DNA of 40,974 nucleotides, from positions 1-40,974 of the forward strand of contig CAMBEO010000016.1 in the NCBI GenBank assembly GCA_945865725.1, in the 5' to 3' direction. Both the position numbers and the translations under genes were made by a program. Numbering within the stretch: position 1 is the first letter of the stretch; each line of letters starts with the position of its first letter. Below, piece by piece: positions 8,176 to 26,169 of this stretch. The DNA comes from Thermoflexus hugenholtzii JAD2. GTDB taxonomy: Bacteria > Chloroflexota > UBA11872 > UBA12225. Below the pieces are notes generated by a model. It was given only the letters and a program-made list of their open reading frames with translations, did not search any database and had not been told where the DNA came from.

Positions 8176-9360
8176 ATGCGCATTCGCGACATCCGCGCCG
8201 CCACGGTTCGACTCGATCCACCCATGCGCACCGCGCCGCGCGTGCCCAAGCAGGCGACCCCGGGATTCGCCAGCCCGATGCTGCGTTACCCCGAGTACCC
8301 CCGGGCGAAGTGGAGCGCCTCTTGGTCTCGCGTCGCCGTCGTCGTCACCGCCGAGGACGGCACCACCGGGTTCGGCTTCACCAACCACGGCGCGCCGGTG
8401 CGCGAGATCGTCAACGGACACTTCGCCCCGCTCCTCGCGGGTGAGGACGTGATGGCGACGGAGAGGCATTGGGACGCGATGCGCCGCGCGTCGGCGCCGT
8501 ACGGGTCCGCGGGACTGGCGTCCTATGCGATGAGTGCCGTGGACATCGCCCTCTGGGATCTCAAGGGGAAGTTGCTCGGTCGCCCGGTCTACGAGTTGCT
8601 AGGCGGCCCCCAGAAGGCCTCGATCGAGTGTTACGCGAGCAATACCGACCTGCAATGGGGCACGCCAGAGAGCATCGCCTGGTTCCTCGAACTCGGGTTC
8701 CGCGCCGTCAAGGTCTTCCTGCGCGACGGACCTGAGGCGGGCATTTCAGGCGTCCGCCGTGCCGAGGAACTCGTCGCACGAACGCGCGAGCAAGTCGGCC
8801 CTGACGTCGAGTTGATGGTCGACGCGTGGATTTCGCTCAACGTCGAGCAAGCCGTGCGCATCGGCGAGGCGATCCGCCCGTACCGCGTGAAGTGGCTCGA
8901 GGACTACCTCCTCCCCGAGGACATGGTGGGCTACCGCCGGGTGCGCGAACGCCTGCCTGGCGCCGTCCTCGCCTCCGGCGAGCACTGGTACACGCTCCAA
9001 CCCTTCGCCGAGGCCGCGGCCGGGGGGCTCGTTGACATCCTGCAACCCGACCTGGCGTGGTGCGGGGGAATTACCGCCGGCCAGAAGGTCGCGCACCTCG
9101 CCGAGGCCCACGGCCTATCGATGATCGTCCATGGGGGAATGAACTACCCGTGGGGTCAGCACCTGTCGCTGGCGATGCCTGCGATCCCGATGGGCGAGCG
9201 ATCGGAGGGGGTTTCGCCGCCCGGGGTACCGCTCGAGGAGATGACCCTCCTGCCCGGGACACCAACAATCCAGAATGGCCGGGTGCGTCCGTCCGATGCG
9301 CCGGGCCTCGGCCTGGAGATCGATCGCGACTGGCTCGAGGCGCGCGCGACGGCGGGGTGA
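8176..9360 (+). CDS. Enolase-superfamily dehydratase, L-rhamnonate dehydratase-like
   Basis: Protein of 394 aa of the mandelate racemase/muconate lactonising branch of the enolase superfamily. The start at 8176 has GGAG ten bases upstream; the frame is open further into the SDR gene without signal. Metal ligands fit D216 (LMVDAW), E242 (KWLEDYL) and E269 (ASGEHW), followed by D292 (ILQPDLAWCGG) and a histidine base in IVHGG (H319). The order and wording of these motifs, and the C-terminal tail with NGRVRPSDAPGLGLEIDRDW, match L-rhamnonate dehydratase (RhmD) better than galactonate or gluconate dehydratases. RhmD removes water from L-rhamnonate and related acids to give a 2-keto-3-deoxy acid. 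The specificity is inferred from motif resemblance by memory; another acid sugar is possible. Confidence 0.85.
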   Translation: MRIRDIRAATVRLDPPMRTAPRVPKQATPGFASPMLRYPEYPRAKWSASWSRVAVVVTAEDGTTGFGFTNHGAPVREIVNGHFAPLLAGEDVMATERHWDAMRRASAPYGSAGLASYAMSAVDIALWDLKGKLLGRPVYELLGGPQKASIECYASNTDLQWGTPESIAWFLELGFRAVKVFLRDGPEAGISGVRRAEELVARTREQVGPDVELMVDAWISLNVEQAVRIGEAIRPYRVKWLEDYLLPEDMVGYRRVRERLPGAVLASGEHWYTLQPFAEAAAGGLVDILQPDLAWCGGITAGQKVAHLAEAHGLSMIVHGGMNYPWGQHLSLAMPAIPMGERSEGVSPPGVPLEEMTLLPGTPTIQNGRVRPSDAPGLGLEIDRDWLEARATAG

Positions 9361-9469
9361 CCCGGGGGGGACGGGGACGCCCCCTCCATCGTTATCCGCA
9401 TGCACGATCCCCCCCCCGCTGCGGCGGGAGAGGGAAGCACCACCACCCCTCCCCCGGGCGGGCAAGGAT
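9361..9469. repeat. Intergenic repeat mosaic left of the MITE-like element
   Basis: This spacer holds three recurring modules in order: a reversed CCATCGTTATCCGC (9386-9399), a reversed copy of the CTCTCCCGC/GCGGG hairpin family (about 9405-9432), and a GGGAGAGGGAAGCACC...GGGCAAGGAT stretch (9426-9469) matching the left part of the 56-base unit. The match to that unit stops exactly where the inserted element starts. Confidence 0.65.
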
Positions 9470-9765
9470 CATCTGTCCCAACTAATTCGGTTTCCCTGTG
9501 CAATTGAAGTGATCCGGGGTCTCTTTCGTCGGGCCGTGGCCGTGGCCGCGCCGCTTTCCTGGGGTGGGGTCTGGTCCGCGGGCATCCTTGCCCGCTCCGG
9601 GATGTTGGGTGACGTGCGGGCTTTGGTGGGCCGAGCGGGCGATGGGGCTGGGTGTCGCCATGATGTGTTACGTGCAAAACGATTACCGCGGAGCGGGCAC
9701 CCCCGGTTACCAAACCTTTCCTAACCGAATCGCCCGTGTAATTTCAGAATAAGTTGGGACAGATG
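9470..9765. mobile_element. MITE-like insertion element, 296 bp
   Basis: The ends are 19-base inverted repeats with one mismatch: CATCTGTCCCAACTAATTC at 9470-9488 and its inverse at 9747-9765. The element is flanked on both sides by the direct repeat GGGCAAGGAT (9460-9469 and 9766-9775). It has no coding capacity for a transposase. Its interior carries a reversed copy of the hairpin repeat (9577-9594) and a module (9593-9626) repeated next to the tRNA-Ser at 32471-32504. The element ends are AT-richer than the surroundings. The 19-base ends and ~10-base duplication would suit an IS4-like parent, but no parent was identified. Confidence 0.6.
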
Positions 9766-9966
9766 GGGCAAGGATGCCCGCGGACCAACGGGAGAGGGAA
9801 GCACCCCGACCCCACCCCGGCGGGCAAGGATGCCCGCGGACCAACGGGAGAGGGAAGCACCACCACCCCACCCCGGCGGGCAAGGATGCCCGCGGACCAA
9901 CGGGAGAGGGAAGCACCCCGACCCCACCCCAGCGGGCAAGGATGCCCGCGGACCAACGGGAGAGGG
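9766..9966. repeat. Tandem array of a 56-bp hairpin-bearing unit (about 3.6 copies)
   Basis: The phrase AAGGATGCCCGCGG recurs at 9770, 9826, 9882 and 9938, an exact 56-base period. The units are nearly identical, differing mainly at ACCACC/ACCCCG and one G/A. Each contains the hairpin GCGGGCA-AGGA-TGCCCGC (the first copy is cut by the element). There are no unique spacers, so it is not CRISPR. A single copy lies at 26113-26169. Long open frames crossing the array on both strands are repeat translations and are not annotated as genes. Confidence 0.9.
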
Positions 9967-9979
9967 CGGCACCGCCGCG

Positions 9980-10756
9980 CTACCCCCCGGTCGCGGTGTA
10001 GCCACCGTCAACCGGGATTTCCGCGCCAGTGACGTACGAGGCCTCGTCGGAGGCGAGGAAGAGCGCGACCTGCGCGATCTCCTCGGGTCGGGCCAGACGA
10101 CCAAGGGGGGTTGACCCCTCGAACGCCGCCCGCTTCGCGGGATCCGCGAGGTAAGGCGCCTGCATCGGCGTCTCGACGATGCCCGGGTGGATGATGTTTG
10201 CGCGGATCCCTTGGCGCGCGAACTGCACGGCCAGGGACTTCGTCAACGAGATCAAGGCACCCTTGCTCGCGGTGTAGGCATCTTGCGGCAAGGTGAAGCC
10301 GCGCAGTGCGGAGACCGACCCGACGACGACGATCGAACCACCACCCGCGGCGATCAAGTGCGGGATGCCGTACTTGCAGGTGAAGTAGACGCCCTTCAGG
10401 TTGATTGCCATCACGCGGTCCCACCACGTCTCGTCGGTTTCGATGACCGACCGGTCGCGATCCTTCCAGAGGACGCCCGCCTGCGGGTAGAGGATGTGCA
10501 GGGCACCAAATCGTTCGACCGCTTCGCCAACCATCCGGCGAACGTCCGCCTCGATACCGACGTCGCCCTGCACGGCCATCGCCTCGCCACCGGCGTCGGC
10601 GATAGCCTCCACGGTCGCGCGGGCCGCTTGGGAATCGAGGTCGGCCACGGCGATCCGGGCGCCGTGGGCGGCGAACAAGCGGGCAGCCGCGCTCCCTTGC
10701 CCCATCCCGGCCCCGGTAATGAACGCCACCTTCCCCTGCAATCGTGGCCCGAACAC
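9980..10756 (-). CDS. Short-chain dehydrogenase/reductase with atypical NNAG motif
   Basis: SDR of 258 aa. The GTG start at 10756 has GGGAGG about seven bases upstream. The cofactor loop reads TGAGMGQG (14-21) instead of TGxxxGIG, and the normally invariant NNAG reads PQAG (91-94), so the structural asparagine is absent. The catalytic residues S147, Y161 and K165 (YTASK) are present, as is the C-terminal TGAEIPVDGGYTATGG. The family oxidises or reduces alcohols, sugars or sugar acids with NAD(P). It lies 13 bases downstream of the glutamine-synthetase-like gene on the same strand, so the two form an operon. That pairing suggests work on a common substrate, which cannot be named. The C-terminal codons abut the tandem repeat array. 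Confidence 0.9.
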   Translation of the reverse strand: MFGPRLQGKVAFITGAGMGQGSAAARLFAAHGARIAVADLDSQAARATVEAIADAGGEAMAVQGDVGIEADVRRMVGEAVERFGALHILYPQAGVLWKDRDRSVIETDETWWDRVMAINLKGVYFTCKYGIPHLIAAGGGSIVVVGSVSALRGFTLPQDAYTASKGALISLTKSLAVQFARQGIRANIIHPGIVETPMQAPYLADPAKRAAFEGSTPLGRLARPEEIAQVALFLASDEASYVTGAEIPVDGGYTATGG

Positions 10757-26079: not shown

Positions 26080-26117
26080 CTCCCCCCGTCTCCCCTTTTC
26101 CCGGGAGGAGGGGGGAG
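26080..26117. terminator. Imperfect hairpin in a convergent spacer
   Basis: A 15-base stem with two mismatches (26080-26094 with 26103-26117) around a loop containing TTTT lies between the importer operon and the GH4 gene. Probable bidirectional terminator. Confidence 0.5.
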
Positions 26118-26169
26118 AGGGAAGCGCCACCGCCCCTCCCCCGGCGGGCAAGGATGCCCGCGGACCAAC
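26113..26169. repeat. Single uninterrupted copy of the 56-bp hairpin repeat
   Basis: It contains GGGAGAGGGAAGC, then the hairpin GCGGGCA-AGGA-TGCCCGC at 26144-26161, then GGACCAAC, as in the array at 9766-9966. It shows what the target looks like without the MITE-like insertion. Confidence 0.8.

Follow-up and report, generated by a model that had tools for sequence, protein, structure and literature searches.

The window, the 40,974-nucleotide stretch of DNA analyzed here, corresponds to contig C16; the draft genome to which it belongs spans 2.30 Mb, is 85% complete, and was queried by searches including BLAST. It contains a MITE-like element set into a tandem array of hairpin repeats, with a duplicated 10-mer at either border (Table 1). 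A sequence-only reading of the window had described inverted ends with a single mismatch, an exact 10-bp border duplication, and the lack of a transposase inside. Each of these features was recovered: the 19-bp ends pair at 18 of 19 positions, GGGCAAGGAT is present on both sides, and the two chance open reading frames that run into the 296-bp element match no protein family. The terminal inverted repeat (TIR) is not a chance pair, since a search of the 2.3-Mb genome gave 11 occurrences of its 13-bp core, CATCTGTCCCRAC, and none of the reversed control. The duplicated 10-mer itself occurs seven times in the window (0.05 expected from shuffling); besides the borders and the array, it is found inside the element on the minus strand at 9584 to 9593. 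Rfam returned nothing for window positions 9300 to 10100.

Table 1. Coordinates of the element, its borders, and the hairpin array in the window
Feature	Position	Strand	Remarks
MITE-like nonautonomous element, no transposase gene	9470..9765	+	296 bp
Left terminal inverted repeat CATCTGTCCCAACTAATTC	9470..9488	+	18/19 identical to N-side end of the G008 IS
Right terminal inverted repeat CATCTGTCCCAACTTATTC	9747..9765	-	
Target-site duplication, left copy GGGCAAGGAT	9460..9469	+	
Target-site duplication, right copy GGGCAAGGAT; then rest of target hairpin (GCCCGC)	9766..9775	+	
Internal copy of target hairpin, AGCGGGCAAGGATGCCCGCGGACCA on minus strand	9572..9596	-	Within element
Left part of interrupted 56-bp array unit	9425..9469	+	
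Rest of 56-bp tandem hairpin array, unit starts 9766, 9822, 9878, 9934	9766..9986	+	
Intact hairpin unit elsewhere in window, model of empty site	26113..26169	+	

The repeat had also been reported to break off and resume exactly at the element borders. Consistent with this, excising the element together with one 10-mer in silico restored a 56-bp array unit that is in phase with the units following it, and the hairpin in the copy put forward as the empty site is indeed uninterrupted. Because the element interrupts an array unit, the array is older than the element in this lineage. An empty site was also sought in relatives: in genomes G001 and G006, the orthologous convergent gene pair (sugar-acid dehydratase-like and SDR) lies approximately 10 to 70 bp apart, with both the hairpin array and the element absent between the two genes. 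Within the element, positions 58 to 153 (window 9527 to 9622) form a module of approximately 96 bp that includes a hairpin. The same module is found in tandem outside the element at contigs C17 and C44, which suggests that the element interior contains a captured host repeat.

To the suggestion that further copies should be searched for in the genome, the answer was positive: element ends were detected at nine loci, three of which are complete (C16, C19, and C7). The copy at C19:5414-5710 is full length and 89% identical to that of C16, whereas C7:2521-2840 has both ends with a diverged interior. Left ends with no detected right end are present at C44, C24 (two, C24a and C24b), C35, and C13, and a right end with no left end is present at C37. 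Several copies are truncated or chimeric; the truncated ones likely resulted from recombination or deletion. A broad BLAST list of 70 matches was dominated by the hairpin module and was not counted as element copies, since the module also occurs outside the element. Duplication length varies among the copies between 9 and 10 bp: exact over 10 bp at C16, exact over 9 bp at C19 (ATCCTGCCC; locus L002, 1492-1500 and 1798-1806), and 10 bp with two mismatches at C7. Outside this genome, plasmid and phage collections yielded no match to the element, and a class-wide search with both element ends matched its own genome only. An exact end-pattern scan of GTDB genomes gave 83 hits, compared to a chance expectation that we estimate at approximately 120, and none of these hits had a convincing inverted partner. 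A second MITE-like element with ends CCTGTCCGATA and CCTGTCCGACA was also noted (L003 1482-1689 on C59; L011 from 1485 on C35). It incorporates fragments of the first element along with that element's hairpin module.

These insertions target a hairpin repeat, GCGGGCA(A)GGATGCCCGC, whose exact core was counted at least 145 times genome-wide. DNA folding predicts a 7-bp stem with a 3- to 4-nucleotide loop, extending to 12 bp where the flanking GGTCC also pairs. To compare insertion positions, every end was oriented and its flank was read outward. A GGGCA(A)GGAT-like sequence precedes the left ends of C16, C19, C44, and C7, and the complementary ATCC(T)TGCCC-like flank adjoins the left ends of C24b and C35 and the right ends of C16, C19, and C7; most copies are thus inserted at the same register, in both orientations relative to the hairpin. 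C24a lies within a hairpin but 1 nucleotide short, and the exceptions C13 and C37 are without hairpin flanks. In all, six of nine loci have a flank that fits GGGCA(N)GGAT or the complementary sequence when one mismatch is allowed, versus 8e-4 of window positions (binomial approximately 3e-17 by our own arithmetic, for 6/9 at 8.3e-4). Apart from a short hairpin context common to C19 and C24b, the outer flanks are mostly unrelated, so the copies arose by separate insertions rather than by duplication of a single segment.

The sequence-only reading had named recombination between repeat copies as its main alternative. On this explanation, recombination or replication slippage between hairpins generated the locus, the 10-bp borders are merely repeat sequence, and nothing was transposed. 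The abundance of the repeat to which the duplicated 10-mer belongs would favor such an origin, as would the hairpin copy inside the element and the truncated or chimeric copies. However, the element has matching inverted ends of its own, which recur at nine loci, and recombination between repeats would yield no insert bounded by inverted repeats. Moreover, whichever way the element is oriented, the junction always falls on one and the same base of the hairpin, and the outer flanks are unrelated; this combination marks target-site insertion rather than recombination. The perfect 9-bp duplication at C19 and the behavior of insertion sequences (IS) with the same ends in other genomes, including 10-bp duplications at nonhairpin sites (see below), already largely refute the recombination explanation, which we regard as highly unlikely.

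To identify an autonomous partner, same-family genomes were searched, and each transposase locus was tested for end pairs. An IS4-family IS of approximately 1.45 kb was detected in the same-genus genome G001 and in the same-family genomes G003, G007, and G008. The G001 copy (contig C343) is 1,449 bp long, with TIRs matching at 16 of 16 positions (CATGAGTCCCAACTAA), a left flank of AGGCACGAAT, and a 454-amino-acid transposase; the contig breaks at the far end of the IS, making the duplication unreadable there. The transposase carries D-72-D-101-E spacing and the Y(2)R(3)E(6)K signature (YARRWDIEMAFDLLK), matches Pfam DDE_Tnp_1, and scores 113 bits against the NCBIfam IS4 model NF033592 (cutoff, 115). 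Related transposase copies in G003, G007, and G008 are located mostly at contig ends, a placement expected of multicopy IS in draft assemblies. Their IS ends read CATGTGTCCCAACTAAATC or CATGTGTCCCAACTAATTC, the latter being the G008 end that is nearly identical to the left end of the window element (Table 1). The CAT ends of the IS fit the IS231/ISH8 subgroups, as judged by ends alone.

Like the element, these IS adjoin the hairpin: 7 of the 16 IS ends examined do so at the same register. The IS also makes 10-bp duplications at nonhairpin sites, as seen in G007 (GCCTTGGAAC, joining contigs C35 and C210) and, with one mismatch, in G008 (ACTCGATA(C/G)C; ACTCGATAC/GC). Hairpin preference is therefore strong but below 100%, at 6 to 7 of 9 MITE loci and 7 of 16 IS ends. 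The search for an IS with matching ends, recommended in the earlier reading, thus succeeded in the same genus and family, whereas the element's own genome, an 85% complete draft, contains no detectable transposase of this type. The 1.45-kb IS is likely the type of the autonomous partner. Because no such transposase was found in the genome of the window, the pairing of transposase and MITE is indirect; both this pairing and active transposition of the MITE are inferred from sequence.

In its own genome, the element matches the IS only over the terminal 19 bp or so, and a simple origin by internal deletion of the IS was considered and dropped. Such an origin may hold in G001, because one MITE there matches the G008 IS end at 27 of 28 bp. 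MITE-like copies in G001 (L054 and L178 870-1172) adjoin hairpin-like flanks. At L178 870-1182 (G001:C343), the MITE and the IS are adjacent, with one 10-bp hairpin-like segment between them, as if the site had been used twice.

A further possibility is that a different transposase moved the MITE, for example, the IS4-type protein encoded on contig C47 of the same genome. This was the sole PF01609 transposase detected in a PF01609 survey of that genome. However, its surroundings have no CATCTGTCCC-like ends (ends that would fit read CATSTGTCCCAAC); its apparent ends, judged together with the homologue at G001:C461, are CTGTCCAGA. In addition, the arithmetic of the C16 and C19 duplications sets the MITE ends at CAT, not CTG. 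C47 was therefore rejected as the partner, and movement of the MITE by a transposase other than the partner type appears quite unlikely. The C47 and C461 loci (L065 and L185) represent a different IS4-type transposase, and in the C47 copy, a long tandem expansion of GACGGT encodes (DG)n.

Taken together, the additional copies, their own duplications, the relatives lacking the insert, and the IS4-family IS support the earlier proposal of a MITE with an IS4-like target duplication. We consider it very probable that the segment is a MITE of the IS4-family kind, inserted preferentially into a dispersed REP-like hairpin by an IS4-type DDE transposase supplied in trans. The element is short and noncoding, and its end signals are those of an IS4-type insertion sequence with CAT ends. 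According to this model, the trans-supplied transposase would bind the MITE TIRs and most likely excised and inserted the element, making a staggered cut of approximately 10 bp in the REP-like hairpin (GCGGGCAAGGATGCCCGC) at a fixed register and thereby duplicating GGGCAAGGAT. The partner IS would have been lost from the genome of the window or be missing from its draft.

The duplicated segment spans GGGC to GGAT, which is 10 bp in a 14-nucleotide hairpin core and 9 bp in a 13-nucleotide core. At C19, the target hairpin is a variant one base shorter, and the duplication therefore keeps the same structural limits relative to the hairpin (one example). This raises the idea that the transposase reads the hairpin, as a cruciform, instead of plain sequence. 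Every transposition would then also distribute new landing sites, given the hairpin copy within the MITE, and MITE and repeat would amplify one another. We view this extension of the model as speculative and on balance improbable.

Several known systems resemble parts of this one. MIC231-type elements are nonautonomous derivatives of IS231. Like them, the window element uses IS4-family ends; unlike them, as far as their description goes, it is only 296 bp long, has no passenger gene, and has another end sequence. REPINs, or RAYT-mobilized REP doublets, are likewise dispersed palindromic repeats in intergenic DNA; however, there the repeat itself is moved, by Y1 transposases and without duplications, whereas in the present case a DDE element uses the repeat as its target. 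The IS4 family is characterized by D(60~110)D(100~150)E and Y(2)R(3)E(6)K motifs and by duplications near one helix turn, with duplications of 8 to 12 bp in the IS231, ISH8, and IS4Sa subgroups (De Palmenaer et al. 2008, PMC2266710). The partner IS shares with these subgroups its CA(T)-starting ends, DDE and YREK motifs, and duplications of approximately 10 bp, but its transposase lies far from the curated models (113 of 115 bits) and at most approximately 31% identical to IS4-type proteins found on plasmids. ISRm22, an IS4-family IS of Sinorhizobium meliloti, was inserted in REP sequences in 10 of 10 cases (Tobes and Pareja 2006, PMC1525189). That IS is also of the IS4 type and occupies one set position in a REP-like palindrome, frequently within repeat clusters; it differs in its repeat and in its duplications, reported as 6 bp (9 to 10 bp here), and the present case involves a MITE with a partial preference. 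REP targeting by an IS4-family element is thus already known, and the unusual trait here is that the target hairpin is carried inside the element.

These results add a nonautonomous IS4-type element that lands preferentially in a REP-like repeat, a habit for which ISRm22 is the earlier IS4-family example, and identify likely autonomous relatives of the MITE. The MITE accounts for some of the enlarged intergenic space of this lineage, and the system could be used to test whether hairpin structure is recognized by an IS4-type transposase.
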